Shown: one piece after another, positions 3,255-33,589 of the stretch
Layout: every line of letters starts with the position of its first letter
How positions within the stretch are numbered: the first letter of the stretch is position 1
IMG/VR virus record: IMGVR_UViG_3300046499_000523
Coordinates: 1 to 33,718 of that record
Source: a virus
Length of the DNA: 33,718 nt
Strand: one strand, 5' to 3'
Notes under the pieces: generated by a model
Told to the model about the DNA's origin: nothing
Seen by the model: only the letters and a program-made list of their open reading frames with translations
Databases searched by the model: none
Program-made: the position numbers and the translations under genes

Positions 3255-3875
3255 GTGCTCGAGTTCGCCGCCGCCACCCGCCTCCACCGCCAGCTCACCG
3301 AGCTCGGTGAGCTGCTCGCCTACGCCCACCTGTTGCTGCTGCCCGGCAGCGCACCCCGCGGCGGCCGCGTCTCCGGCGCCACCCGCACCCCGCCCCTGCC
3401 GTGCCGCGTGGACGTGCTCTCCTGGTTCGGCCCCGCGCCCGAGCCCCGCGGCGCCGTCGTCGACCCGCACGGCGACCAGGGCGGCCCCGCGCCCGTCGTC
3501 GGCACCCTCGCCACCTGGGTCCGCCTCATCGAGGAGGAGAGCGCCTTCGCCGACTGCGAGGCGTACAGCATCGGCGGCATGCTCGGCTACCTCAGCTCCC
3601 AGGCCGTCCTCGCCTGGACCTGCCGGCAGCCCTGGGCCGACGAATACGCCGCCGAGGTCGACACCCTGCACCGCCGGGCCCGCAGCCTCTCCGGCACCCG
3701 GGCCCGCCGGCGGCCCCTTCCGCAGCTCGCCTGCCCGCGCTGCGACCTCTACTCGCTCGTCGAGGAGGACGGCCGCGACACCGAGTGCACGACGCCCGGG
3801 TGCGGCGTCATCCTGCGGCCCGGCGAGGTGTCCGCGCGCGCCGAGCAGATCCTGCGGGAGATGGACGCGGCGTGA
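3255..3875 (+). CDS. Hypothetical protein with C-terminal zinc ribbon
   Basis: This 206-residue protein starts at GTG 3255 after AAGGAG. The N-terminal two thirds are helical (RLHRQLTELGELLAYAHLLL near the start). The last 60 residues contain LACPRCDLYSL and ECTTPGCGVIL, two CxxC-like knuckles about 18 residues apart, as in a rubredoxin-like zinc ribbon. Many Streptomyces phage early proteins end in such a ribbon. The name and function are unknown. The stop codon is only 3 bases from the stop of a leftward gene, so transcription from the two directions converges here. Confidence 0.6.
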   Translation: MLEFAAATRLHRQLTELGELLAYAHLLLLPGSAPRGGRVSGATRTPPLPCRVDVLSWFGPAPEPRGAVVDPHGDQGGPAPVVGTLATWVRLIEEESAFADCEAYSIGGMLGYLSSQAVLAWTCRQPWADEYAAEVDTLHRRARSLSGTRARRRPLPQLACPRCDLYSLVEEDGRDTECTTPGCGVILRPGEVSARAEQILREMDAA

Positions 3876-3878
3876 CCG

Positions 3879-4079
3879 TCAGGCGCCCGTCTGGCCCCTG
3901 GGGGCCGGCGGGCGCTCCGGCAGTTCCGCCCCGGGCCGCCGCAGGTACCAGGCGACGAGAGCACGGAGCACGGCCGCGCGGTTCCGCAGGCCGGCCCGGA
4001 CGCCGAGGTCGTCCCAGTCCCCGTCAGGGATGCGCACGACCCGGTTCGTGGTGTGGGTGTCCTTCGCGCGGCTGACCAT
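3879..4079 (-). CDS. Ribbon-helix-helix regulator, leftward
   Basis: The 66-residue protein has an N-terminal basic stretch, then TNRVVRIPDGDWDDLGVRAG as a beta strand plus helix 1, and RNRAAVLRALVAWYLRRPG as helix 2. This is the size and order of RHH (CopG/Arc-like) DNA-binding proteins. The C-terminal 15 residues are Pro/Arg-rich. ATG 4079 is chosen because it lies 7 bases downstream of a TACGCT -10 box (leaderless). A longer reading adds an unlikely N-terminus that crosses the palindromic operator. It is divergent from a second RHH gene, and the two probably regulate each other and themselves. RHH function is inferred from the sequence pattern. Confidence 0.7.
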   Translation of the reverse strand: MVSRAKDTHTTNRVVRIPDGDWDDLGVRAGLRNRAAVLRALVAWYLRRPGAELPERPPAPRGQTGA

Positions 4080-4085
4080 CCGCCC

Positions 4086-4114
4086 AGCGTAGGGGCTGCA
4101 TATGCAGTAGTCGA
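4086..4114 (-). promoter_or_regulatory. Leftward leaderless promoter
   Basis: Reading the minus strand, TCGACT (plus 4109-4114) is followed after 17 bases by TACGCT (plus 4086-4091), a TAnnnT -10 box. Six bases then separate it from the ATG of the leftward RHH gene, so the expected start point is at the A of ATG. The -35 is weak (4 of 6). The operator TGCATATGCA at 4097-4106 fills the spacer. Confidence 0.45.
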
Positions 4115-4168
4115 GCAATCCCCTTGCCATGCATATGCACGACTGGCTAGGGTGTGCATATGCACACC
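4097..4168. promoter_or_regulatory. Three-site TGCATATGCA operator cluster
   Basis: The perfect 10-bp palindrome TGCATATGCA occurs at 4097-4106, 4130-4139 and 4155-4164. The third copy is extended to an 18-bp perfect palindrome, GGTGTGCATATGCACACC, at 4151-4168. Centre spacings are 33 and 25 bp. In such GC-rich DNA an AT-centred 10-mer occurring three times in 70 bp is far from chance. The sites lie between divergent RHH genes and overlap both promoters, which is the standard layout for an autoregulatory operator. Confidence 0.75.
4124..4153 (+). promoter_or_regulatory. Rightward leaderless promoter
   Basis: TTGCCA (4124-4129, 5 of 6 to TTGACA) and TAGGGT (4148-4153, TAnnnT) are separated by 18 bases. 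The predicted start point falls about 7 bases downstream, at the A of ATG 4160. One operator lies in the spacer and another covers the start point, so repressor binding would block the promoter. Confidence 0.55.
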
Positions 4169-4336
4169 GCCGACATTGAGCCGGCCCAGACCGGCATGCC
4201 CGCGCCGCCCGCGACCAAGAAGGTCGTCGGCGGGATCACTCTCTACGGACCGCAGCTCGCCAAGCTCGACAAGGCGACCACCGACGGCACCAGCCGTTCC
4301 GCGATCCTGCGCCACCTGATCGACCAGTACCTCTGA
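4160..4336 (+). CDS. Ribbon-helix-helix regulator, rightward
   Basis: The 58-residue protein ends in GGITLYGPQLAKLDKATTD and GTSRSAILRHLIDQYL, a beta strand followed by two helices with the SRSAILRxLI pattern typical of CopG-like RHH repressors. The first 20 residues are flexible and Pro/Ala-rich. ATG 4160 is preferred over GTG 4154 because the -10 box ends at 4153 and would make a leaderless mRNA beginning with this ATG. A weak AGGG also precedes it. It is divergent from the other RHH gene and shares its operators. It may bind TGCATATGCA as a dimer of dimers; this is inference. Confidence 0.7.
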   Translation: MHTADIEPAQTGMPAPPATKKVVGGITLYGPQLAKLDKATTDGTSRSAILRHLIDQYL

Positions 4337-4432: not shown

Positions 4433-4612
4433 ATGGACAGCCAGCACCTTAGCGCGCCCAGCGCGCCCGCGATCACCCCGGACCCGGCCAGCCGTGACAA
4501 CGACCGGCAGCCCGCCCCGTACGCCCTCGTGACCGGCCCCGCCGCCACCGTCGGCCGCCCCGTCCACGTCCCCAGTTCCGAGCGCCCCTCCCAGCGCGCC
4601 TACGGCCGCTAG
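4433..4612 (+). CDS. Small Pro/Ala/Ser-rich hypothetical protein
   Basis: This 59-residue protein starts at ATG 4433, with AGGAGAG about 10 bases upstream. The composition is Pro-, Ala-, Ser- and Arg-rich and apparently disordered (LSAPSAPAITPDPASRDNDR), and the end is RPSQRAYGR. It has no membrane segment. It sits directly before the SpdB-like gene, with a 123-base gap. No family is recognised. Coding status rests on the ribosome binding site and codon bias and is less certain than for longer genes. Confidence 0.4.
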   Translation: MDSQHLSAPSAPAITPDPASRDNDRQPAPYALVTGPAATVGRPVHVPSSERPSQRAYGR

Positions 4613-4735
4613 CCACCTCCCCCCAGTACTCGGCGGAAGGCCAGCGCCCAGCGCGCCGTGGTCACCGCCCTGCCACCGCCCGGGCCGAGGTGCACACCAT
4701 CCCTCGGCCCGGGCCACCATCCCCGGAGCACACCC

Positions 4736-5815
4736 ATGAGCCTGCTCACGCGCGACGTCGAGCGCACCCGCCTCGTCCCGTTCGCCCCCTACGAGGGCGC
4801 CCCCGTCGAACTCGTCCCCGAGAAGTACACCGTCCAGGTCCCCCGCGACTGGGACCGCGCCGTCCTCGCCGGAGTCGCCGGTGGCACCGGCGTCCTCCTC
4901 ACCCTCGCCGTCGTCTGGTCCACCGCCAGCATTGGCGCCCTCCTCGCCCTTAGCGGAGTCCTGGCCGTCATCGCGTACGGCGTCGCCGCCGTCTTCGACG
5001 CCGCGTGGATCATCTGCATGGCGCTGGAGTGGCTCGCCCGCTACGACCCTCGCAGGGCCGTCATGCCACGCCGAGCCGGGTACGTCGCCCTCGGCATCTC
5101 CATGGCCGCCATCGCCACCCGCGAAATCCTCCCGCACGGCTGGTCCGGCGTGCCCGTCGGCATCATCGGCGCGGCCGTCTCCCTCATCGCCAAGGGTGTC
5201 TGGACCCTCGCCATCAAGGCCACCGCGAAGGAACTCTCCCCGGTCGCCGAGCAGTACGTCGCCCGCCGCCAGGCCGCCGCCGGTGCCGAGCTCGCCATGG
5301 CCGTCGTCGACCGGCAGCTCGCCCGCACCCGCCACCAGCTCGACGCCTACCGCGAGGCGTACGGCGCCGCCGAGACCGTCACCGTCGACCGGCCCGTCCC
5401 GGACCCCGACAGGCCGTCCGGACGACCGGCCAGCCTGCCCGCCACCATCAGGTCCGCCATCCTCGCCGCCCTCACGGTCTCACCCGGCGCGGGCCCCGAG
5501 GAGATCGTCGAGAACCTCGCCCGCGTCGGCATCGACACCGACGCGGACACTGTCCGGACACTGTCCGACTCCGTGTCCGGACAGCACCCGGACACGCCGG
5601 ACAGCAGGTCAGGCACCGTGCTCGCCCTCGCCCCGCACGCCCCGGGCGACACCATCACGGACACTGTCCGATCCGCTGTCCGGACCCTCGGACAGGACGT
5701 CGACGCCGTCCTGTCCGCTGTCCGCCGCGTCCACGGCTCCGAGGTCGAGCGGGAGACGGTCCGCCGACTCGTCGACCGGGTCACCGGCCGCGGCCGCAAG
5801 GCGGTGAACCGCTGA
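4736..5815 (+). CDS. SpdB-like multi-pass membrane protein
   Basis: This 359-residue protein starts at ATG 4736 with GGAG 7 bases upstream. Hydrophobic helices lie at about 42-63, 66-97, 113-128 and 138-160, with WLARYDPRRA between helices two and three. A helical cytoplasmic stretch follows (170-205, with RxxxQLxxxR spacing), then a linker and a C-terminal region (255-359) with repeated TVRxL and AVRxV motifs. The organisation (short N-tail, four helices, long charged tail) resembles SpdB proteins that help spread Streptomyces plasmids and integrative elements from hypha to hypha. Family assignment is by recall of layout and the YDPRR motif. The 3' third carries a dense array of TGTCCG/CGGACA hexamers. 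The stop overlaps the next start. Confidence 0.6.
   Translation: MSLLTRDVERTRLVPFAPYEGAPVELVPEKYTVQVPRDWDRAVLAGVAGGTGVLLTLAVVWSTASIGALLALSGVLAVIAYGVAAVFDAAWIICMALEWLARYDPRRAVMPRRAGYVALGISMAAIATREILPHGWSGVPVGIIGAAVSLIAKGVWTLAIKATAKELSPVAEQYVARRQAAAGAELAMAVVDRQLARTRHQLDAYREAYGAAETVTVDRPVPDPDRPSGRPASLPATIRSAILAALTVSPGAGPEEIVENLARVGIDTDADTVRTLSDSVSGQHPDTPDSRSGTVLALAPHAPGDTITDTVRSAVRTLGQDVDAVLSAVRRVHGSEVERETVRRLVDRVTGRGRKAVNR
5551..5724. repeat. TGTCCG/CGGACA hexamer array
   Basis: TGTCCG occurs at 5551, 5562, 5574, 5665, 5677, 5712 and 5719, and CGGACA at 5555, 5578, 5589, 5598, 5658 and 5689 (first bases). Two pairs join into the palindrome TGTCCGGACA (5551-5560 and 5574-5583). The array lies inside the coding region of the SpdB-like protein, where it encodes TVR/LS-type residues in different contexts. 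Roughly one tenth of an occurrence would be expected by base composition in this length, so the clustering is real. Confidence 0.65.
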
Positions 5816-5976
5816 TGGGCATCTGGGCCAAGATCACCGGCACCTCCGACAGCCCGGCCACCGGCCGGACCCCGAAGGAACGCCGCCGCCGCGAGCGCGA
5901 GATCCGCGCGATCGACGCCTCCACCTCCCGGTGGCTCCGCTCCGGCGGCCACTCCACCAACCCGCCCCGCCGCTGA
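5815..5976 (+). CDS. Small basic hypothetical protein
   Basis: The start ATG overlaps the stop of the SpdB-like gene by one base (TGATG). The 53-residue protein begins MGIWAKITGTSDSPATG and continues with a strongly basic helix, KERRRREREIRAID. It contains no hydrophobic segment. The basic character would suit nucleic-acid or membrane-surface binding. In Streptomyces mobile elements, short basic proteins often follow spdB, but I cannot name this one. Confidence 0.5.
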   Translation: MGIWAKITGTSDSPATGRTPKERRRREREIRAIDASTSRWLRSGGHSTNPPRR

Positions 5977-5987
5977 AGGAGCCAGCC

Positions 5988-6077
5988 ATGGGATACGTGA
6001 TCTGCATCCTCCTCGCCATCCCCGACGTCGCCCTCCTCATCTGGGGCGTCCGCGAGCTCACCCGCAGGGCCCGATGA
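5988..6077 (+). CDS. 29-aa membrane miniprotein
   Basis: ATG 5988 is preceded by AAGGAG about 7 bases upstream, and the stop overlaps the next ATG (ATGA). The peptide GYVICILLAIPDVALLIWGV is one transmembrane helix followed by a basic RELTRRAR tail. Its fine ribosome binding site and coupling to a real neighbour support translation despite the tiny size. Function is unknown. Confidence 0.5.
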   Translation: MGYVICILLAIPDVALLIWGVRELTRRAR

Positions 6078-6343
6078 CCAGCCTCGGCCACAACGTCACT
6101 GCGGCCGCCGCCGCCCTCGCCCCCGCCGTCTGGTGGGCCTCCCAGCTCACCAACTCCACCTCGGTCGGCCCGCTCGCCCCGCTCGGCCTCACCGCGGCGG
6201 CCCTCCTCGTCACCATCACCGCGGACCGGGTCGCTACCTGCTGGCCCACCCGGGCCCTGCTCTTCGTGCCGCTCGCCGCTCTGCCCATGTCCCCGGCCGC
6301 CGCCCACGCGGCCATCACCTTCGCCACCGGAGTAGCCCTGTGA
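6074..6343 (+). CDS. Small membrane protein, 89 aa
   Basis: The ATG overlaps the preceding stop (ATGA) and the stop overlaps the next GTG. Three hydrophobic stretches are visible: AAALAPAVWWASQL, LGLTAAALLVTITA and LLFVPLAALPMSPAAAHAAI, so two to three membrane passes are likely. It belongs to the membrane-protein run downstream of the SpdB-like gene. No family is recognised. Confidence 0.55.
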   Translation: MTSLGHNVTAAAAALAPAVWWASQLTNSTSVGPLAPLGLTAAALLVTITADRVATCWPTRALLFVPLAALPMSPAAAHAAITFATGVAL

Positions 6344-6879
6344 ACCCCACCACCGTCACCCTCGGCGGCGTCATCGTCGGCACCGCCCTCCACATCCGTG
6401 AGTTCGCCCCCGCCGCCTGGGCCACCTTCGTGAAGAAGGAGGGCAAGGGCGACGGCCCCTCCGAGAGCGCCAAGTTCAACATCAAGAACCACATCCCGTT
6501 CCTCGCCGGCGACGTGATCGGCATCCTCGCGATCAGCTGCCCCGGCGGCTTCATCGGCGCCGCCGCAGGTAAGGTGCTCGGCTTCAGCAACGCGATCGGC
6601 GACAAGGTGCTGTCCTCCGGTGCCGGTGGCAGTACCGTCGCCGCCACCCGGCACGCCGCCCAGACCATGGACAACTACGGCGCCGCGGTCGTCATCCTGC
6701 TCGTCTTCACCGCCGTCATCCTGCGCAAGAAGCTGCCGAAGCCCCAGAAGAAGCAGCTCGGTGCCGGCATGTGGTCCGGCACCACCATCGGCCTGTCCTC
6801 CGCCGCCTCCGGCCTCGCCGGGGCTGCCCTCGTCCCGCTCGCCGAGCAGCTCGGTCACGCCCTCGGCGGTGCCGTGTGA
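6340..6879 (+). CDS. Membrane protein of the Spd-like module
   Basis: This is a 179-residue protein with a GTG start in a GTGA overlap. The first helix (VTLGGVIVGTALHIREFAPA) is followed by a polar loop with a KKEGKGDGP segment, then hydrophobic and Gly-rich stretches at about 50-70, 105-125 and 145-170. The C-terminus is Ala/Gly-rich. This layout resembles small-pilin-like or spread-associated membrane proteins of Streptomyces conjugative elements, but there is no diagnostic motif. The gene is coupled both upstream and downstream. Confidence 0.55.
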   Translation: MNPTTVTLGGVIVGTALHIREFAPAAWATFVKKEGKGDGPSESAKFNIKNHIPFLAGDVIGILAISCPGGFIGAAAGKVLGFSNAIGDKVLSSGAGGSTVAATRHAAQTMDNYGAAVVILLVFTAVILRKKLPKPQKKQLGAGMWSGTTIGLSSAASGLAGAALVPLAEQLGHALGGAV

Positions 6880-7481
6880 AGGCCGGTTGGCGGATCCGCC
6901 GCCTCGCGAACGGCTCCCGGCTCGTCGCCCGCCGCACCGGCCGCGCGTTCGTCCCCCTCCACCCGGACGGCGAGATCCGGCTCCTGGCCACCATCGTCCG
7001 CTGCGGCCCCGCAGCCCTCGCAGCGCCCCGACTGCTCGACCTCGCCCACCAATCCCCGGTGTGGCTCGTCGGCGGCACCGGCGCCTGGTGCATCGCCGCC
7101 TGGCGGGCCCGGCCGGACGCCCCCAAGGCCAAGGAGGAGGAGGCCGAGCAGGAGGAGCCGGGGGAGGTCGGCCCGGCCGACCTCCGGCAGGCCGTCGTCG
7201 ACCGCCTGCTCGGGTGGGTCGGCGAGCGCCGCGGCATCCACCTCGCCGAGGTGTACGAGCGGTACCGCCAGCAGCCCGGGCACAGCCACCTGACGGACAC
7301 CCAGATCCGCACCGCCCTGGTCGACCACTACCGGATCCCCGTCCGGCCTGGCGTCCGCACCCCCGACGGGGTCCGCGCAGGTATCCACCGAGACGACCTC
7401 CAGCCCCTCCCCTCCCCCGCCGCCCCTGCCCCTGTTGCGGAGGAGCGCAACACGGCTGTGACCAGCGATGTTGCGGCCTGA
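6876..7481 (+). CDS. Membrane-associated protein with C-terminal winged-helix-like region
   Basis: This is a 201-residue protein with a GTG start in a GTGA overlap. Residues 1-70 carry basic patches and a hydrophobic segment (PVWLVGGTGAWCIAAW, about 68-83). A Glu/Lys-rich hinge (KAKEEEAEQEEPGE) leads to a domain of about 85 residues (VDRLLGWVGERRGIHLAEVY then TQIRTALVDHYRIPV and TPDGVRAGIHRDDL). I recall this GVHRDDL-type ending from proteins encoded near spdB in Streptomyces elements. It could bind DNA. Its last codons contain the first TGTTGCG inverted repeat. Confidence 0.55.
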   Translation: MKAGWRIRRLANGSRLVARRTGRAFVPLHPDGEIRLLATIVRCGPAALAAPRLLDLAHQSPVWLVGGTGAWCIAAWRARPDAPKAKEEEAEQEEPGEVGPADLRQAVVDRLLGWVGERRGIHLAEVYERYRQQPGHSHLTDTQIRTALVDHYRIPVRPGVRTPDGVRAGIHRDDLQPLPSPAAPAPVAEERNTAVTSDVAA

Positions 7482-7830: not shown

Positions 7831-8070
7831 ATGGGCGACGACCACATGTACCTCGACCCCGAGGGCCTCGACTGCCTGACAGCCCGCCAGGCCGCAGCGC
7901 TCACCGGCCGCAGCCTCCAGACCATCTACAGCTGGGAACGACGCGGCCTCCTCAAGGCCCGCATGACCGACGACCAAGGCCGCAAGGTCTACCTGCACAG
8001 TGAGGTCGCCGCCCTCGAAGGCCAGCGCCGCGACTGGACCGACCGCATCCGCGCCCGACAGGCAGCCTGA
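7831..8070 (+). CDS. MerR/excisionase-like HTH protein
   Basis: The 79-residue protein has LTARQAAALTGRSLQTIYSW as a helix-turn-helix, followed by ERRGLLKARMTDDQGRKVYL, which gives the wing of MerR-like or excisionase-like winged helices, and the HSEVAALEGQRRD helix. There is no effector domain, so it is a stand-alone DNA binder. GGGAGG 5-6 bases before ATG 7831 supports this start; ATG 7846 is possible. It has its own promoter upstream and a hairpin at its 3' end, so it is monocistronic. Roles as a recombination directionality factor or late-gene regulator are both possible. No integrase is nearby, which makes the former unproven. Confidence 0.65.
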   Translation: MGDDHMYLDPEGLDCLTARQAAALTGRSLQTIYSWERRGLLKARMTDDQGRKVYLHSEVAALEGQRRDWTDRIRARQAA

Positions 8071-8133: not shown

Positions 8134-8901
8134 GTGGCCAGCCCGTACAGCCCCGACACCGCCCGCGCCATCGCCATCGGCGCCACCGCCGCCGGCTACG
8201 TGGAGTACGTCAGCCCCGCCAGCGACGACGAGGCCGCCGCGCACAACCTCCAGCAGATGGAACAGCGCCTCACCGCGTTCGCCCTCTACCAGCGCGACAG
8301 TCTCGCCGCCCTCCGCCGCACCCTCGGCCTCACGCCGACCACCGGTGTCCGCGTCCTGTGCGTCGGCGACTCCATCACCGACGGGGCCGGCAGCACGGAC
8401 GGCACCGGGTACCGCACCTGGCTGACCGACCTGCTCGACCAGCGGCGTGCCGCCCCCACCTACAGCCTCCAGGCCTACCCCGGGCAGACGCTGCGGTACG
8501 TCGCCCCGCGGGCAATCGCTGCCCTACCCACCGCCCGGCCCGACCTGGTCCTCGTACACCTCGGCACCAACTGTGCGATGCAGAACGACCTCACGGACTG
8601 GCAGGCCCGGTACGCCGACCTCGTCGACCAGACCCTCGCCTCGTCACCGACAGTCCGCGTCGCCTGCGCCCGCATCCAGTACAGCCGCAACACGACCGTT
8701 GCCGCCCGCGAGCAGCAGATCAACGGCTACATCGACGCTGTCGTTGCCGCCCGCGTCGCAGGCGGCCGCGTCGTCACCGCCGACATGACCGGACTACAGG
8801 CCCGCTGGACCGAGGACGGCGTGCACCCCATGGACGCCGGGTACATGCACATGGCCCAGCAGTGGGCCGCCGCCATCGGGCCGTGGCTGCCGGCGACCTG
8901 A
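8134..8901 (+). CDS. SGNH/GDSL-family hydrolase
   Basis: This 255-residue protein starts at GTG 8134 with AGGAGG 9 bases upstream. It has the SGNH blocks: G78-D79-S80-I-T-D (nucleophile Ser80), G144-T-N146 in HLGTNCAM (block III Asn), and D228-G-V-H231-PMDAGYM (catalytic Asp and His). The N-terminal 60 residues are extra and include a helix resembling attachment modules. The family hydrolyses ester bonds on sugars or lipids. In phage particles such enzymes deacetylate cell-surface polysaccharide. No signal peptide is present, so release is via the virion or lysis. The gene sits beside a collagen-like protein, which suggests that both act at the host surface. Confidence 0.8.
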
Positions 8902-8929
8902 CCGACCGCAGTCCAGCAAGGAGGTGACC

Positions 8930-9664
8930 GTGCCGCTCCCCGAAAGCCTCCAGGCCGTCACCGTGACGCTCCCCGGCGCCTACCGCGCCGACGGCACCGT
9001 CCGCCGCGGCAGCATCACCTTCGAGCCCGCGCCCGCCGTCATCACCGCCGCACAGGCCAACGCCGTAGTCGCCGGGCCCACCACGGCCACCTACGACGGC
9101 GAGACCACGCCCGGGCCGCTCACCCTCCTCGCCGTCGACTCCACCGGCATCAGCCCCGTCGACTGGACCTACCGCGTCACCGAACGCTGGTACGACGCCC
9201 CGAGCCGCTCCTACCCGATCTCGCTGTCCGCCGCCGAGCCCGATGTCTACCTCGTCGCCATCGCGCCCGTCGCCGACTCCGACGGCACCCTCGTCCCCGC
9301 CGTCGGCCCGCCCGGGCCCGAAGGACCACAGGGTGACCCGGGGCCGACCGGCGCCACAGGAGCGACGGGCGCCACCGGGCCAACCGGCCCCACAGGACCT
9401 GCAGGGGTGCAGGGCGAACAGGGCCTGGCAGGACCGACCGGGGCAACCGGTCCCGCCGGGCCCACGGGCAGCACCGGGCCCGCCGGCGCCGATGGATGGG
9501 GCGACCAGGCCACGTACGACACGCTCGCCGCCCGGGTGAGCGCCGTCGAGTCCGGCTTCACCACCGTGAACACGTACCTGACCGACCTCTTCAACCGCGT
9601 CGCCAGCCTGGAGGGCCGGATGACCAGCGTTGAAGGGCGCGTCGACGCGCTGGAGGGACCGTAG
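8930..9664 (+). CDS. Collagen-like fibre protein with coiled coil
   Basis: This 244-residue protein starts at GTG 8930 because AAGGAGG (8918-8924) lies 5 bases upstream; GTG 8924 would sit inside that site. Residues 1-125 form a beta-rich domain ([35 protein letters not shown]). Residues 126-188 are 21 Gly-X-Y triplets ([19 protein letters not shown] onward) that would form a collagen-like triple helix. Residues 195-244 are a heptad coiled coil ([29 protein letters not shown]). This is the build of trimeric phage tail fibres. It lies far from the tail-tip genes, next to the SGNH hydrolase, and the two may form one adsorption unit. Location on the virion is inferred. Confidence 0.7.
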
Positions 9665-10838: not shown

Positions 10839-11321
10839 ATGGCAGCGCCCAAGCGCCGTCCGGCCGGCCTCAAGCTGATCGAGGGCGTCCGGCCCGGCCG
10901 GGACTCCGGCGGCCGCAAGGTCGTCGAGCCGCCGGCTTTCCGCCGGGTGCCGCCCGAGGCGCCGGAGTGGCTGCCCGAGGAGGCGCGGGCGGAGTGGGAC
11001 CGGGTGGTCCCGGAGCTGGCCCGGCTCGACCTGCTCAAGCCGGTCGACCGGTCGGCACTGACGGCGTACTGCCTGACGTGGGACCGGCTGGTCCAGGCCC
11101 AGCGGGAGATGGAGCGGGACGGCTCGGTGCTGTCGGAGAACTCTCAGGGCCGTGTCCGGCACCCGGCGGTCGCCGTGATCGAGGCGGCGTCGAAGGAGCT
11201 GCGGGCGTGGGCCGGCGAGTTCGGCCTGACGCCTTCGGCGGAGTCGAAGGTGGGGCGGCAGGGGGGGCGGCAGGGGGCGGACGATGGCGACGAGGAGAAT
11301 CCGTTCGCGGTCTCCGGCTGA
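10839..11321 (+). CDS. terS: Terminase small subunit
   Basis: This 160-residue protein starts at ATG 10839 with GGAGGTG upstream. It has the P27-type pattern: basic N-terminus (MAAPKRRPAGLKLIEG), EWLPEEARAEWDRVVPELAR, then a helix DRSALTAYCLTWDRLVQAQR and NPAVxVIEAA-like HPAVAVIEAASKELRAWAGEFGL before a disordered tail. It binds the packaging site and loads the large subunit. The 3' end overlaps the start of terL by 38 bases in a different frame. There is no insertion or truncation. Confidence 0.8.
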   Translation: MAAPKRRPAGLKLIEGVRPGRDSGGRKVVEPPAFRRVPPEAPEWLPEEARAEWDRVVPELARLDLLKPVDRSALTAYCLTWDRLVQAQREMERDGSVLSENSQGRVRHPAVAVIEAASKELRAWAGEFGLTPSAESKVGRQGGRQGADDGDEENPFAVSG

Positions 11322-13011
11322 GCTGGGCATCAGTGCCGAGGTCGCCTGGTACATGAAGGCGCGGGGCATCCCGCTGCCGGACTGCCCGCCGAAGGTGCAG
11401 ACTCCGAACCCGGGCGAGGCGCCCGGCGCCCGCTTCGATCCGGGCCGGGTGGACCGGGTCCTGCGCTCGTTCCACCTGCTGCGGCACACGCAGGGCAAGT
11501 GGGCGGGCCGGCCGCTGGACCCGGACCCGTGGCAGGTGGCGTACATCCTGGCCCCGGTGTTCGGCTGGGTCCGGTGGGACGACGAGGCCGACGGCTACGT
11601 GCGGATCGTCCGCAAGTTGTACGTGGACGTGCCGCGGCGCAACGGCAAGACGACGCTGTCCGGCGGCATCGCGGTCTACATGATGGCGGCGGACGGCGAG
11701 CCGGGCGCGCAGGTGTACGCCGCGGCGACCAGCGAGAAGCAGGCCCGGTTCACCTTCGACCCGATCCGGCAGATCGCCGAGCGGGCGCCGGCCCTCAAGG
11801 GCAACGTCCGAGCGTTCACCAAAAAGATCACTCACCCGGCGTCGGGCTCGTACTTCACGGTGGTGTCGTCGGTCGCCGAGGCGATGCACGGCGCCAACGT
11901 CCACGCCGGGATCATCGACGAGCTGCACGTCCACAAGAGCCCGGACCTGGTCGAGACGATCGAGACAGGAACCGGGTCTCGGCGTCAGCCGCTGGTGGTC
12001 ATCATCACGACCGCCGACGACGGCCGCCAGGAATCGATCTACGACCGCAAGCGCCAGTACATCGAGCAGCTGGCCCGCGGCGCCCTGCACGACCCCGACA
12101 CGTACGGGGTGGTGTGGGCCGCGGAGCCGGACGACGATCCGTTCGCGGAGGCGACGCACCGCAAGGCGAACCCCGGGTATGGGGTGAGCCCGTCGGCCGC
12201 GTACCTGCGCGGCGCGGCGGCGGAGGCTCAGCAGTCCCCCGCCGACCTGGCCAAGTTTCTGCGGCTGCACCTGGGCATCCGCACGAAGCAGTCGACTCGC
12301 TTCGTGACCATGGAGTCCTGGGACGCGAACGCCTCGATGGTCGACGAGCAGGCGCTCAAGGGCCGGGACTGCTGGGGCGGCCTGGACCTCGCCAGCACCT
12401 CGGACCTGTGCGCGCTGTGCTGGCTGTTCCCGAACGACCAGGACGGCACCCTGGACGCACTGTGGCGCTTCTGGACGCCGGAGGACAACCTCAAGGCGCT
12501 CGACAAGCGGACGGCCGGCGCGGCCTCACGGTGGGTCCGTGAGGGCTGGCTGGTGGCGACGCCCGGCAACGTGGCGGACTACGACTGGATCAGCGAGCAG
12601 ATCGCCCGGGACCGGGATGCGTTCCGGGTCCGCTCGATCGGCTACGACCCCTGGAACGCCTCGCAGCTGACGAACACCCTGGTCGCCGAGCGGGCACCCA
12701 TGGTGAAGGTCCGGCAGGGCTTCGCGACCATGTCGCCCGTCATGAAGGAGATCCAGCGCCTGACGCTGCAGGGCACTGCGGAGCTGCCGGTGCTGCGGCA
12801 CGGCGGCAACCCGGTGGTGCGCTGGTGTGTCGACAACCTGGCCGTGGCGATGGACCCGGCGGGCAACGTGAAGCCGGACAAGGCGAACAGCGGCGACAAG
12901 ATCGACGGCGTCTCGGCGCTGGCCACGGCGATGGCCGAGGTCGTCGCCCGGCCGCCGAAGCGCAAGAGCCGGTACGGGGACGACGGCGACGATTCGATCA
13001 TGGTCGTGTGA
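11284..13011 (+). CDS. terL: Terminase large subunit
   Basis: This 575-residue protein has a Walker A motif (VPRRNGKTTLS, from about residue 116) and Walker B (AGIIDELHVHK, about 209-219) for ATP-driven packaging. The nuclease domain begins at GGLDLASTSDLCAL (about 365, first acidic residue D368) and ends with an NSGDKIDGVSALATAMAE motif carrying the last acidic residues. It is of the HK97/P27 type. It overlaps the end of terS, so the two are translated together. Length and motif spacing are normal. Confidence 0.92.
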   Translation: MATRRIRSRSPAELGISAEVAWYMKARGIPLPDCPPKVQTPNPGEAPGARFDPGRVDRVLRSFHLLRHTQGKWAGRPLDPDPWQVAYILAPVFGWVRWDDEADGYVRIVRKLYVDVPRRNGKTTLSGGIAVYMMAADGEPGAQVYAAATSEKQARFTFDPIRQIAERAPALKGNVRAFTKKITHPASGSYFTVVSSVAEAMHGANVHAGIIDELHVHKSPDLVETIETGTGSRRQPLVVIITTADDGRQESIYDRKRQYIEQLARGALHDPDTYGVVWAAEPDDDPFAEATHRKANPGYGVSPSAAYLRGAAAEAQQSPADLAKFLRLHLGIRTKQSTRFVTMESWDANASMVDEQALKGRDCWGGLDLASTSDLCALCWLFPNDQDGTLDALWRFWTPEDNLKALDKRTAGAASRWVREGWLVATPGNVADYDWISEQIARDRDAFRVRSIGYDPWNASQLTNTLVAERAPMVKVRQGFATMSPVMKEIQRLTLQGTAELPVLRHGGNPVVRWCVDNLAVAMDPAGNVKPDKANSGDKIDGVSALATAMAEVVARPPKRKSRYGDDGDDSIMVV

Positions 13012-13032
13012 CGGCCGGGACGGGAGGCCGCG

Positions 13033-13251
13033 ATGTTCGCATGGCGTCGCACTGCGGTGCACAAGGCAGTCGTGGTGAACCTGGCGGACAAGGCGTTCCG
13101 TGGCGTGCTGTGGGCCCAGCGCGGCCCACTGCTGGTCCTGCGGGGTGTCGAGCTGCTGGAGGCGGGCCGGGAGCCGCAGCCCGTGGACGGCGAGATCGTC
13201 ATCGAGCGGTCCCGGGTGGAGTTCGTTCAGGTGACGGGCGGGGGTGGCTGA
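13033..13251 (+). CDS. Small protein between terminase and portal
   Basis: The protein has 72 residues, with GGGAGG upstream of ATG 13033. Its sequence, VVVNLADKAFRGVLWAQRGPLLVLRGVELLEAG...VIERSRVEFVQV, alternates beta strands in the way of an Sm-like or small barrel fold, and I recall small proteins of this pattern at the same place in actinophages. The stop overlaps the portal ATG by one base (TGATG). A structural or assembly role is suggested by position, not shown. Confidence 0.65.
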   Translation: MFAWRRTAVHKAVVVNLADKAFRGVLWAQRGPLLVLRGVELLEAGREPQPVDGEIVIERSRVEFVQVTGGGG

Positions 13252-15173
13252 TGGCCTTCGTCGTGTCCCGCGGCCAGCTCAGTACGACCGGCGCCGGGGT
13301 GTCGCCCGCTTTCGCGTCGAGTCCGCTGCGGTCTGCCGCCCCGTGGGAGTACGAGGACATCTGGCGCACGCAGCCACAGGTGCGGACCGTGGTTGGTTTC
13401 CTGGCCCGCAACGTCGCACAGCTGGGGCTGCACTTCTTCCGCCGCATCTCGGATACCGACCGGGTCCGGCTGACCGACCATCCGGCCGCGGTCCTGCTCG
13501 CCAACCCGCTGCCGGGCCTGACGACGTATCGCCTGGTCGAGCGCATGCTTTCCGACCTGGCGATCTATGACGAGTTCTACGCCATCAAGGTGGACCTGGA
13601 GGGTCAGGGGCGCCGGCTGCTGCCCGTCCCTCCGACGCTGATCCGCCCGTACGGCGGGAACTGGGCGGCGCCCGAGGGCTTCGAGGCCGCGTCCGGGCAG
13701 CGCTTCGGGCTCGACGAGGTCGTCTACATCCACGGCTACACGCCGGGGGACCTGACGTCGGGCACCTCGCCCATGGAGTCCCTGCGGGCGATCCTCCTGG
13801 AGGAGTCCGAGTCGACGCGCCAGCGCGCGCAGATGTGGCGCTCGGGCGCGCGCATGACGGGCGTCCTGGTCCGTCCGGCCGACGCCCCGGAGTGGAGCCC
13901 GGAGGAACGGCGGCGCTTCGGCGCGATGTGGGGTGCTTTCACCCAGGGCGGTGGCGGCGAGGGCGGCACGCCGCTCCTCGAGGACGGCATGGAGTACAAG
14001 CCGATCTCGATGTCCCCGCAGCAGGCCCAGTACATCGAGGGCCGCAAGCTGACCCGCGAGGAGGTCGCGGCGGCGTACTACATCCCGCCTCCGCTGATCG
14101 GCATCCTGGACCACGCCACCTACTCCAACATCAAAGAGCAGCACAGCCACCTGTACCAGGACACCCTCGGCCCGTGGCTGACGATGTTCGAGCAGGAGAT
14201 CGGCGCGCAGATCATCGCCGACACGCCTGACAGCGCGGACGTCTACTGCGAGTTCAACATCGCGGCGAAGATGGCCGGCGACTTCGAGGCTCAGGCGGCG
14301 GCGGCGAGCACCGCCACCGGCGGCCCGTGGATGACCCGCAACGAACAGCGCGCCCGGATGAACCTGCCGTGGCTGCCGGGCGGGGACGAGCTGATCGTGC
14401 CGCTCAACGTCACCGAGGGCGGCCTGGCCTCCCCCCGGGACACGGCCCCGAAGGCTCAGGGCCCGGGCGTCCTCTTCAAGGGGCGCCCCGCCGGCCTGTC
14501 CGCCTTCGAGCAGGAGCGGGACCTGTACGCCTCCCGGCTCAGCACCTGGTCGGCACGTCAGATGGACGTCCTCCTGCGGTCGGTGGGCGCCAAGGATCTC
14601 GCCCCGCCGGAGCTGCTGCTGCTGTGGTCGGCCGGGGCGCCCGAGCGTCTCGCCCAACTGCAGACGCTGATGGCCGACCGCGGGTTCCGGCTCGCACAGG
14701 TCGGCGCCTGGGAGGTCCTCGCCGACCACAACGAGGGCGCCGACGGCTGGTCCGCGGACGTGATGCTGGCCTGGCTGCTGGCCGCGGCCGAGTCGCACGC
14801 CGCAGAGCATGAGGCCGCCGCCGTCTCCGGGCTGCAGGCCGCGGTCGCCGACCCGTCGAGGGACTGGCGTGTGTCGGTCCAGGCCGCCGCTGACCTGTGG
14901 GCCGGGGCGGTCTCCGTCCGGCGGGCGTGGACCGCAGCCACCGAAGGCCGGTCCTTCGGCGGCCATGACGCCGCCGGGGCGTCCGGCCTGACGCACAAGG
15001 TGTGGCGCACGGGCGGCACCCGGCCGCGCGACTCGCACCAGGCGCTGGACGGCGACCGGGTCCTGCTGGACGACGTGTTCGGCAACGGCCTGCGCTGGCC
15101 GGGCGACGCGTCCGGCCGGGACTCCGAGACCGCGAACTGCAACTGCAGGCTCGACTACGAGAGAGAGGGGTAG
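13251..15173 (+). CDS. Portal protein fused to MuF-type C-terminal domain
   Basis: This 640-residue protein starts at ATG 13251, one base into the upstream stop. Residues 1-415 match HK97-type portals: YEDIWRTQPQVRTVVGFLAR, HPAAVLLANPLP, SPMESLRAILLEE, TREEVAAAYYIPPPLIGILD and an EQHSHLYQDTLGPWL region. Residues of about 420-640 are helical and end in DSHQALDGDRVLLDDVF (His596) and SETANCNCRLDYE (C630, C632), the signature of the SPP1 gp7/Mu F minor head domain. Portal and MuF are usually separate genes, and here they form one frame with no internal stop. The portal forms the dodecameric DNA gate; the MuF part probably lies inside the capsid. Confidence 0.85.
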   Translation: MAFVVSRGQLSTTGAGVSPAFASSPLRSAAPWEYEDIWRTQPQVRTVVGFLARNVAQLGLHFFRRISDTDRVRLTDHPAAVLLANPLPGLTTYRLVERMLSDLAIYDEFYAIKVDLEGQGRRLLPVPPTLIRPYGGNWAAPEGFEAASGQRFGLDEVVYIHGYTPGDLTSGTSPMESLRAILLEESESTRQRAQMWRSGARMTGVLVRPADAPEWSPEERRRFGAMWGAFTQGGGGEGGTPLLEDGMEYKPISMSPQQAQYIEGRKLTREEVAAAYYIPPPLIGILDHATYSNIKEQHSHLYQDTLGPWLTMFEQEIGAQIIADTPDSADVYCEFNIAAKMAGDFEAQAAAASTATGGPWMTRNEQRARMNLPWLPGGDELIVPLNVTEGGLASPRDTAPKAQGPGVLFKGRPAGLSAFEQERDLYASRLSTWSARQMDVLLRSVGAKDLAPPELLLLWSAGAPERLAQLQTLMADRGFRLAQVGAWEVLADHNEGADGWSADVMLAWLLAAAESHAAEHEAAAVSGLQAAVADPSRDWRVSVQAAADLWAGAVSVRRAWTAATEGRSFGGHDAAGASGLTHKVWRTGGTRPRDSHQALDGDRVLLDDVFGNGLRWPGDASGRDSETANCNCRLDYEREG

Positions 15174-15176
15174 GCG

Positions 15177-16046
15177 GTGCCGCGCACCAAGGAATGCACA
15201 GCCCGCATCAAGGCCGCCGGCACTGCCGACGGCCTCGCCGAGGGGCAGTTCACCGCGCTGGTCAGCGTCTTCGGCAACGAGGACTCGGCCGGCGACGTCG
15301 TCATCCCGGGCGCCTTCACCCAGACGCTGGCCGACTGGCGGGCCAAGGGCGACCCGATCCCCGTGATCTGGTCGCACGACTGGTCCGACCCGTTCTCCCA
15401 CATCGGCATCGTGGTGTCGGCGATGGAGACGCCGGACGGACTCGAGGTCACCGGCCAGATCGAGGACGTCGACACCAACCCGACCGCGGCCCAGGTCTAC
15501 CGCCTCCTCAAGGGGCGGCGAGTCACGCAGTTCTCCTTCGCGTACGACGTCGAGGAGGGCGCGTGGGTCGAGGGCCAGGACGACGACGGCCGCTGGTACG
15601 GCTACTACGAGCTGCGCGAGCTCAAGCTGTACGAGGTCGGGCCGTGCCTGGTCGGATGCAACCAGGCCACCGAGCTGCTCGCGGCGAAAGCCGACGAGCT
15701 CACCCGCGGCGTGAAGGCGGGCAGGGTGTTGGCCCAGCGCCACATCGACAGCCTGACCGCGGCGCACGCGGCGATCGGAGACGTCCTCGCCGCGGCCGCC
15801 ACCGCCGAGGAGCAGAAGACCACCACCCAGCCCGGCCGCCCCGGGCCGCAGCCGGCCGCCAGCGAAGAGCTGCCCGCCAAGGCTGAGGACACCGGGCCCG
15901 CCCAGGGCCACACCACCAGCAGCACCGACGAGACCACGCCGGATCTCCGCGAAGCCCCTGCCGGGGCCGCCAAGGCCGACGCCGCCTCGCTCCGCCTGCG
16001 TACCCACCTCGAACTCCTGGAGTTCGAGAACTCGCTCACGGACTGA
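15177..16046 (+). CDS. HK97-type prohead protease
   Basis: This 289-residue protein starts at GTG 15177, 3 bases after the portal stop. It has the S78-family features: FGNEDSAGDVVIPGAFTQTL, a catalytic His in WSHDWSDPF (H67) and the nucleophile Ser in RRVTQFSFAYDV (S120), followed by KLYEVGPCLVGCNQAT. The C-terminal 130 residues are a disordered, Ala/Pro-rich extension ending in a Leu-rich helix (LRLRTHLELLEFENSLTD) that may interact with the capsid scaffold region. It cleaves the capsid protein N-terminus during maturation. The next ribosome binding site overlaps the stop. Confidence 0.85.
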   Translation: MPRTKECTARIKAAGTADGLAEGQFTALVSVFGNEDSAGDVVIPGAFTQTLADWRAKGDPIPVIWSHDWSDPFSHIGIVVSAMETPDGLEVTGQIEDVDTNPTAAQVYRLLKGRRVTQFSFAYDVEEGAWVEGQDDDGRWYGYYELRELKLYEVGPCLVGCNQATELLAAKADELTRGVKAGRVLAQRHIDSLTAAHAAIGDVLAAAATAEEQKTTTQPGRPGPQPAASEELPAKAEDTGPAQGHTTSSTDETTPDLREAPAGAAKADAASLRLRTHLELLEFENSLTD

Positions 16047-16055
16047 GGAGACCCC

Positions 16056-17381
16056 GTGCCCACCAAGACGGAGCTCGCCGAGCTCATCAAGCACCACCTG
16101 ACCGAGGCCCGCGCCATCGCCAAGGCCGCCGAGGACAGCGACCGGGACTTCACCCCGGAGGAGGCCGGCCAGCTGCGCGAGCACATGGCCAAGGCCACCG
16201 CCGCCCGGGCGGACCTGGAGAAGCTCAAGGGCAACGACGACCTGCGCAAGGCCCTGGCGGACCTCGGCGACGACATCGCCCTGAACGCCAAGACCGACGA
16301 CGACGGCCGCCGCCGCACCGCGTCCGGCTTCGAACTGCCCGCCGCCGGCAAGTCGCTGGGCGAGCAGTTCACCGGCTCGGACGAGTACCGGGCCCTGATG
16401 GCGACCGCGCCCGGCGGCACGTTCGGCCAGAAGCAGCGCGTGCAGTCCGGCATGGCCGGCTTCAAGAGCCTGGTCACCGGCGCTTCGGACACGTCCGCGG
16501 GCGCGTTCGTCGTCAACGACCAGCTCGGCCTGCAGGTCGGCCTGGAGGCCTTCCAGCGCCCGCTCACCCTGCGGGACGTCGTCACCCAGGGCACCACCAG
16601 CTCCGACACCGTCGAGTACGTGCGGGTCACCTCGGCGACCAACGCGGCCGCGCCGGTCGCGGAGGCCACCAGCTCGGCCGCACCGACCGCTCCTGCGAGC
16701 GTCCCGGGCGCGCTGGTCAACAACGCGGGCGGCGGCTACAAGCCGGAGTCGGCCCTCGCCACCGCGAAGATCGTCACCAACGTCAAGACGATCGCGCACT
16801 GGATCCCCGTCACCAAGCGGGCTCTGTCCGACGCCGCTCAGATCCGCACCCTCATCGACGCCTTCCTCCGCTACGGCCTGGAGGAGGAGCTCGAGGACCA
16901 GATGATCCAGGGCGACGGCACGGGCGAGAACTTCGAGGGCATCGGCACCGTGTCCGGCACCCAGGCCCAGGCCTGGGACAGCGACATCCTGACCACCCTG
17001 CGCAAGGCCAAGACGAAGGTCCGCACGGTCGGCCGCAGCATGGCCAACGCGTACCTGCTCAACCCGGCCGACCTGGAGACGGTCGATCTCCTCCAGGACA
17101 ACGAGGCCCGCTACTACTTCGGCGGACCCGGCGGCGTCGGCTCCGCGTCCGTCCTGTGGGGCCTGCCGGTCATCGAGACCGAGGCCGTCCCCGCGGGCAC
17201 CGGCTACGTCGGCGACTTCCGCAAGGCGATCCTGTGGGACCGCCAGCAGGCCACCATCCAGGTGACCGACAGCCACCTGGACTTCTTCATCAGGAACCTG
17301 GTCGCGGTCCTCGCCGAGATGCGGGCCGCGTTCGGCGTCATCCAGCCGACCGCCTTCGTCGAGGTCGACCTCACCGCCTGA
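16056..17381 (+). CDS. Major capsid protein (HK97 fold)
   Basis: This 441-residue protein starts at GTG 16056 after GAGGAG. Residues 1-85 are a charged helical delta/scaffold region (LIKHHLTEARAIAKAAEDSD, RADLEKLKG), removed in this family by the protease encoded upstream. The shell domain follows: GAFVVNDQ, RPLTLRDVVTQGTTSSDTVEY, IVTNVKTIAHWIPVTKRALSD, then LEDQMIQGDGTGENFEGIGT, NPADLETVDLLQD and GLPVIETEAVPAGTGYVGDF. These are hallmarks of HK97-like capsids. It is expected to be the most abundant virion protein. Length is usual for the family with its scaffold. Confidence 0.92.
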   Translation: MPTKTELAELIKHHLTEARAIAKAAEDSDRDFTPEEAGQLREHMAKATAARADLEKLKGNDDLRKALADLGDDIALNAKTDDDGRRRTASGFELPAAGKSLGEQFTGSDEYRALMATAPGGTFGQKQRVQSGMAGFKSLVTGASDTSAGAFVVNDQLGLQVGLEAFQRPLTLRDVVTQGTTSSDTVEYVRVTSATNAAAPVAEATSSAAPTAPASVPGALVNNAGGGYKPESALATAKIVTNVKTIAHWIPVTKRALSDAAQIRTLIDAFLRYGLEEELEDQMIQGDGTGENFEGIGTVSGTQAQAWDSDILTTLRKAKTKVRTVGRSMANAYLLNPADLETVDLLQDNEARYYFGGPGGVGSASVLWGLPVIETEAVPAGTGYVGDFRKAILWDRQQATIQVTDSHLDFFIRNLVAVLAEMRAAFGVIQPTAFVEVDLTA

Positions 17382-32323: not shown

Positions 32324-32569
32324 TCAGCTCGTCGGTGGCTCCGGCAGCCGAGCCACGAAGGTCCCGATGCCCGGCTCCATGTACGCGAGCCCGGCGTCCC
32401 GCAGCTCTTTCAGCACCCGGCGCGCGGTCATCGGCGCGATGCCGGTCTCCGCCGACAGGTCGAGCGCGGACGGCAGCCGCTCACCGGGCGGGTACGTGCC
32501 GCTGTCGATGCGTTCCTCGACAAGCTCGTACACCTGCCGCCACCTGGGCACATCCGGGATCCAGTCCAC
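32324..32569 (-). CDS. Short GntR-family regulator
   Basis: The 81-residue protein starts at minus-strand GTG 32569 and matches the GntR N-terminal winged helix: PRWRQVYELVEERIDSGTYP then PGERLPSALDLSAETGIAPM and TARRVLKELRDAGLAYMEPG with the GIGTFVA wing. No effector domain follows, so it is the DNA-binding part alone. The start codon lies 7 bases after TAGCGT on the minus strand, suggesting a leaderless mRNA. It probably binds the inverted repeats just upstream. Confidence 0.75.
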   Translation of the reverse strand: MDWIPDVPRWRQVYELVEERIDSGTYPPGERLPSALDLSAETGIAPMTARRVLKELRDAGLAYMEPGIGTFVARLPEPPTS

Positions 32570-33203: not shown

Positions 33204-33466
33204 GCGCCCGGTTCGAGGTGCGCCCGCAGGTGCTGCACGGCCAGGCCGGCTGGGTGCCGTGGGACCTGCGCAAGGACCGCGCCGCCTCCGGCTGGTCGCC
33301 GTCCCGGGAGCGCGTGGCCGCGTGGGTGCGGCGGGAGAACGGCGGGACGTCAGCCGTAGAAGAGGCGCCAGGTGTCGACACCGAGCGCGGCAGCGATGGC
33401 CACCACCTCGTCGAGCGACCCGGATGTCTGCGCCCGCTCATAGGCTCCGACGGTCTGACGGTCTAA
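33200..33466 (+). CDS. Small hypothetical protein, convergent with XRE gene
   Basis: GTG 33200 overlaps the upstream stop. The protein, 88 residues, begins SARFEVRPQVLHGQAGWVPW DLRKD, a beginning I recall from short Streptomyces phage proteins that usually end after the helix REN (about residue 48). Here the frame stays open for 40 more residues, on the complement of the XRE gene. The tail may be an artefact of overlap with that gene or mark a recombination junction. No function is known. Confidence 0.4.
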   Translation: MSARFEVRPQVLHGQAGWVPWDLRKDRAASGWSPSRERVAAWVRRENGGTSAVEEAPGVDTERGSDGHHLVERPGCLRPLIGSDGLTV

Positions 33467-33589
33467 GCCGGCCAGCTCCGCCAGCGCCTCCTGGCTCAGG
33501 TGGCGCTCGTGGCGAAGGTGGCGGATTCGCTCGCCCACCAGTCTGCGCTGTTCGATCTGGTGTCCAGTGGGTCGGCGGGTAGGTGGCAC
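33350..33589 (-). CDS. XRE-family HTH regulator
   Basis: The 79-residue protein starts at minus-strand GTG 33589. It contains the HTH_XRE core: VGERIRHLRHERHLSQEALA, then ELAGLDRQTVGAYERAQTSG and SLDEVVAIAAALGVDTWRLF. The size is that of a stand-alone Cro/CI-type repressor without a C-terminal domain. The last 117 bases are antisense to the rightward gene at 33200-33466. Upstream DNA holds an inverted repeat likely to be its operator. It may be the lysogeny repressor or a host regulator. Confidence 0.75.
   Translation of the reverse strand: MPPTRRPTGHQIEQRRLVGERIRHLRHERHLSQEALAELAGLDRQTVGAYERAQTSGSLDEVVAIAAALGVDTWRLFYG

Follow-up and report, generated by a model that had tools for sequence, protein, structure and literature searches.

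A predicted family of actinophage ribbon-helix-helix autorepressors whose strands and palindromic operators vary together

The locus and its viral setting

Two very small genes, here called RHH1 and RHH2, face away from each other within a viral record of 33,718 bases and 72% G+C, all of which was analysed and is referred to as the window (Table 1). Genes for the terminase large subunit, the portal and the major capsid protein are present, and the terminase shares ~60-63% identity with its counterparts in Arthrobacter and Gordonia phages. Because of this similarity, and because relatives of RHH1 and its operators occur in Streptomyces genomes, we take the window to be an actinophage or prophage. 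RHH1 is the sole minus-strand gene between rightward genes, and its 3' end lies 3 bp from that of a convergent gene (3255-3875). At this boundary, within the 3' end of RHH1, a GC-strong hairpin (3882-3916; z of -2.0 against shuffles, a modest value) may be a two-way terminator.

Table 1. Coordinates of the genes, operators and candidate promoter elements in the window
Feature	Position	Strand	Remarks
RHH1, Arc/Mnt-like repressor, 66 aa	3879-4079	-	strand N12-R13-V14-V15-R16; helices 19-29 and 34-47
Leftward -10 element, TACGCT	4086-4091	-	6 nt before RHH1 ATG (apparently leaderless)
Operator O1, TGCATATGCA	4097-4106		in -35/-10 spacer of RHH1 promoter
Leftward -35 region, CTCGACT	4109-4115	-	read on minus strand; similar sequence in relatives
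Rightward -35 element, TTGCCA	4124-4129	+	TTGNC(C/A) kept in many relatives
Operator O2, TGCATATGCA	4130-4139		in -35/-10 spacer of rightward promoter
Rightward -10 element, TAGGGT	4148-4153	+	6 nt before RHH2 ATG (apparently leaderless)
Operator O3, TGCATATGCA	4155-4164		over rightward start point; RHH2 start codon inside (TGCAT-ATG-CA)
RHH2, 58 aa	4160-4336	+	first gene of rightward operon; RHH-like helices (TSRSAILRHLIDQYL); strand VIGGITLY/VVGGITLY
Presumed RHH1-controlled rightward operon, beginning	4433-7481	+	59-aa ORF and others; PHROG matches
Membrane-type protein, phrog_35187/29416	4736-5815		rightward operon; PHROG scan
phrog_16379 protein	6340-6879		rightward operon; PHROG scan
Terminase, portal and capsid genes	10839-17381		rightward operon leads towards them

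The palindrome TGCATATGCA occurs in the window exactly three times, always between RHH1 and RHH2, as the original prediction had counted and placed it. Three copies were found in none of 100 dinucleotide shuffles of the window, and a search allowing one mismatch added no further copy. The predicted arrangement, in which each promoter spacer has one copy and the third copy overlies the rightward start point, agrees with the positions of the -10 elements and with a layout that is conserved among relatives. A generic sigma-70 consensus scan called neither promoter, so the promoter assignment depends on this conservation. TANNNT lies 6-7 nt upstream of the RHH1 start codon in 17 of 17 distinct loci, and on the rightward side it lies 6-7 nt ahead of an ATG within the last site in 14 of 17; most operator classes also have a site ~20-30 nt upstream of the RHH1 start codon. 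Both genes therefore look leaderless. The start codon of RHH2 falls inside O3, so this operator also encodes the first residues of the protein, Met-His. For an operator to include a leaderless gene's start codon would be new, and would represent an unusual constraint. One copy had also been described as extended to 18 bp. The extension is real in the window, at the third site (GGTGTGCATATGCACACC, 4151-4168), but is not conserved, as relatives retain only ~12 bp (GTGCATATGCAC).

Elsewhere in the window, a GDSL hydrolase gene and a collagen-repeat gene (8134-9664) precede the terminase genes, an odd location for tail or wall-acting proteins. A 79-aa protein (7831-8070, plus strand) has weak similarity to MerR/excisionase DNA-binding domains. 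Near the right end are an 81-aa lone GntR-type DNA-binding domain (32324-32569, minus strand) and a 62-aa Xre-type repressor (33350-33538, minus strand). PF10935 (DUF2637) had no match in the window.

RHH1, its relatives and their operators

The assignment of the RHH1 product to the ribbon-helix-helix (RHH) proteins is supported by family matching, by modelling and by covariation with the operator. The protein matches PHROG 6506, 'Arc-like repressor' (E 5.7e-4). Its AF2 model (pLDDT 73) has an extended N-terminus followed by two helices, which gives the strand-helix-helix arrangement over ~45 residues that defines the Arc/MetJ superfamily. Alternate strand residues set operator specificity in RHH proteins, and residues 12 and 14 of RHH1 are those that covary most with operator class. 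Codon differences among relatives are mostly at the third position (67/59/202 by position). RHH1 was recognized by neither Pfam nor NCBIfam. Foldseek returned no match for the RHH1 or RHH2 model, both small and of low confidence, and VIA-align together with Foldseek gave nothing useful on these monomers of modest confidence.

Relatives of RHH1 were found at 25 viral loci and, using a family profile, in 50 of 393 Streptomyces genomes, and tblastn of named phage and plasmid collections returned relatives of neither RHH1 nor RHH2. Additional loci came from an independent DNA search for paired palindromes, and many of these are adjoined by an RHH1 relative. The collections are partly redundant and share common ancestry. 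They yielded 52 non-redundant RHH1-family proteins, of which the 39 with a classified operator were used for covariation; some LRG[IV]R loci were left unclassified with a single palindrome copy in the scored stretch, where other inspection shows two. Pairs of TGCATATGCA also recur in many alphaproteobacterial genomes (L137, L143, L182, L189 and others; Bosea, Bradyrhizobium, Sphingomonas). No RHH1 relative is nearby, so these pairs were set aside from the RHH1 system, and they are probably the site of another regulator.

The palindromes proved to be conserved beside homologous genes in other actinophages. Upstream of all 16 non-redundant relatives with the strand NRV[VIF]R there are two to four TGCATATGCA-type sites. 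Proteins with NRV[V/I]R mostly have three, close to positions -84, -60 and -27 relative to the RHH1 start codon, and the sole NRVFR protein (L283, with N12 and V14) has only degenerate GCATATGC copies. Relatives with other strands have different palindromes at similar places: HRSVR occurs with TGTACGTACA, (A/P)RQ[MI]R with TGTAGCTACA, LRG[IV]R with TGGTTAACCA, QRV[VL]R with TGGCTTGCCA-type sites and SRFR with TGTGGCCACA-type sites. In other words, strand and palindrome change together across the wider family (L012, L014-L023, L026, L027, L262-L290), which comprises at least six operator classes with similar promoter positions. At one such locus (L017:4870-5000) the operator GGTCCACGTGGACC, which we take to resemble a half-site of the P22 Mnt operator, stands beside a relative with the strand QHRSVT.

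Among the 39 non-redundant loci, the operator is predicted best by residues 12 and 14 (z of 14.4 and 13.8 against shuffled labels, scores that overstate independence because the sequences share ancestry), and R16 is near-invariant. The TGCATATGCA group spans two C-terminal bodies, one with a WYLRRPGA tail and the other with an IRMHIKRE tail. Two proteins with the IRMHIKRE-type body have G12 (L277 and L282), and TGCATATGCA was not found upstream of them. These contrasts, though few, help to reach past simple descent as an explanation. The genes opposite RHH1 at TGCATATGCA loci vary, and include RHH2, endonuclease VII and replication initiation proteins. The comparison points to N12 and V14 as the residues that choose the palindrome. 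The correspondence is not one-to-one, since a protein with the strand ARPVR (L272) shares TGTACGTACA with the HRSVR proteins. Because the palindrome tracks the RHH1 strand, and because the best-predicting columns are the base-contact positions in solved RHH complexes, it is almost certainly RHH1 that recognizes the three TGCATATGCA copies.

DNA recognition by RHH proteins is through a two-stranded sheet, and only a few of these proteins have a known rule that links strand residues to bases. The family described here, which occurs naturally in Streptomyces-type phages, pairs at least six palindromes with six strand sequences and places them alike on promoters. Swaps of residues 12 and 14 could therefore test the code, which would also let the repressor-operator group of an actinophage be read from sequence. 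In the literature on Streptomyces and actinophage RHH repressors we found no description of the RHH1 family or its operators, and searches for TGCATATGCA and for its extended and sister palindromes gave nothing on phages among the papers listed. RHH1 and its relatives thus appear to form a previously unreported family of actinophage repressors, one whose strand-to-operator code can be read.

RHH2 and control of the rightward operon

RHH2 (60 aa with the GTG at 4154 as start codon) is moderately supported as an RHH protein. Its helices match the RHH1 family profile over 27 columns (90%) and it matches PDB 2kke with an E of 0.008; its match to PF01402 (E 0.057) is below the cut-off, NCBIfam did not recognize it, and its AF2 model (pLDDT 69) has two short strands. 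Thus, of two RHH regulators predicted to face apart, the divergent layout and the nature of RHH1 stand, whereas RHH2 is the less secure member. All occurrences of RHH2 that were found, at 12 viral loci and in 1 of 393 Streptomyces genomes, are at TGCATATGCA loci. Of the 16 non-redundant loci of this class, however, only 5 carry it; the other 11 have TGCATATGCA operators of similar geometry without it. In two assembled relatives (L007 and L010) a run of seven C, six in L008, shifts the RHH2 frame after ~18 codons, with RHH1 and all three operators intact. This may be phase change, decay or an assembly error. Codon differences in RHH2 (109/63/128 by position) indicate weaker constraint than in RHH1.

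We consider it quite probable that RHH1 is an Arc/Mnt-type autorepressor that reads TGCATATGCA, controlling itself through O1 and the rightward operon through O2 and O3, and that RHH2 is the first repressed product, with some other role. Bound presumably as a dimer, RHH1 would insert strand residues N12-x-V14-x-R16 into the major groove of the palindrome. At O1 it would block its own leaderless promoter, and at O2 and O3 it would block the rightward leaderless promoter, from which RHH2 and the following operon are expressed. Repression of both transcription units is very probable, given that the operators, in their geometry and leaderless layout, follow the RHH1 strand independently of RHH2. 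Gene anatomy by itself suggests one way in which repression could be relieved: early transcription from the convergent neighbour into RHH1 might lower the amount of RHH1 and so open the rightward operon.

The unit heads different gene blocks in different loci. In a related prophage of Streptomyces fulvorobeus NBRC 15897, the RHH1-RHH2 pair has an early block (HTH_17 protein, Prim-Pol, helicase) on one side and, on the other, a block that leads to the terminase; the far end carries an integrase and a separate HTH protein. At other loci the promoter is directed at an endonuclease VII gene (L119) or at genes for replication initiation (L164, L129, L190), and in other operator classes the cassette heads terminase genes (L012, L019). 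From this variety we take the unit to be a movable control cassette and not a fixed immunity gene.

The original prediction held that one element may be read by two competing regulators, in which case RHH1 and RHH2 would both bind TGCATATGCA in a CI/Cro-like bistable or mutually repressing switch. Arguing for this, RHH2 occupies the position of cro at the head of the opposing operon, the helices of the two families align, and every RHH2 found lies at a TGCATATGCA locus. The constant linkage may, however, reflect shared descent. Counter to the proposal, the operator tracks RHH1 residues 12 and 14 with or without RHH2, and the specificity strand of RHH1 is replaced in RHH2 by VIGGITLY, which has Gly-Gly, no N-x-V-x-R and nothing in common with NRVVR. 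Because RHH2 has this different strand and occurs in only a subset of loci, competition for one element is not supported, and we regard such a switch as improbable. Alternatively, RHH2 could be an antirepressor that uses the shared helical core to pair with RHH1 and strips it from the operators, making the operon self-reinforcing. The common helix-helix core with a changed strand would suit this role, as would the predicted control of RHH2 by RHH1 and its occurrence only with RHH1 in the viral loci and the 393 Streptomyces genomes. We nonetheless find this doubtful, since RHH2 is absent from most loci and, to our knowledge, natural RHH heterodimers are uncommon. Taken together, the chance that RHH2, whose strand resembles that of no RHH1 relative, either works at the three TGCATATGCA operators itself or removes RHH1 from them, which would make this a leaderless two-RHH bistable switch in actinophages, seems to us small. 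Given its related helical core and different strand, RHH2 most likely has other DNA as its target or works by contacting proteins.

Two further readings are already disfavoured. RHH proteins of partition systems, such as ParG and Omega, bind repeated sites at promoters, and small RHH proteins and repeated sites are both present here. A centromere-like array in place of operators is nevertheless very improbable: there are just two to four sites, they lie on promoter elements and travel with the promoter into unrelated contexts, and no ParA-like gene was recognized among the neighbouring proteins scanned. Palindromes are also the sites through which many RHH antitoxins regulate themselves, so RHH1 or RHH2 could be the antitoxin of a toxin-antitoxin pair. 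We give this equally little credence, because there is no co-directional toxin partner: RHH1 stands by itself on the minus strand and converges with the upstream gene, and Pfam and PHROG scans matched the genes beside RHH2 to no toxin family.

Comparison with known systems

In phage lambda, three operator copies lie between divergent promoters with a regulator gene on each side, and both regulators, CI and Cro, are HTH proteins that read the same operators. The arrangement of operators, promoters and flanking genes is similar here, but comparison among loci shows only RHH1 to track the sites. The PHROG 6506 family, which both RHH1 and its relative in L012 match, comes with no operator, gene layout or specificity rule in its entry.

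The mnt and arc genes in the immI region of phage P22 are divergent, and each repressor has its own unrelated operator. These two small RHH repressors control ant, and in P22-like phages immI is a movable 'moron' in the late operon (PMC2629481). The view that no phage system of this form had been described was therefore too strong, and immI has the plan closest to that of the RHH1-RHH2 module. Both have two very small RHH genes (RHH2 with moderate support) around one divergent promoter region with operators on the promoter elements between them, both have a small RHH gene at the head of the repressed operon, and the cassette in the window likewise has relatives in varied places. Unlike immI, the module uses one palindrome three times, tracking only RHH1, with no second conserved element noticed for RHH2. 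Its genes also look leaderless. P22 immI yields the antirepressor Ant, whereas Pfam and PHROG scans of genes that follow RHH2 matched none of them to an antirepressor family.

For the contacts themselves, the RHH protein AmrZ of Pseudomonas offers a comparison: K18, V20 and R22 contact the bases (PMC3325190). AmrZ differs from RHH1 in being cellular and longer, in having a C-terminal domain and in reading an operator of GGC half sites. Residues 12, 14 and 16 of RHH1 nevertheless have the same contact spacing with Val in the middle, and the autorepression proposed for RHH1 resembles that of AmrZ, which represses its own gene through two promoter sites.
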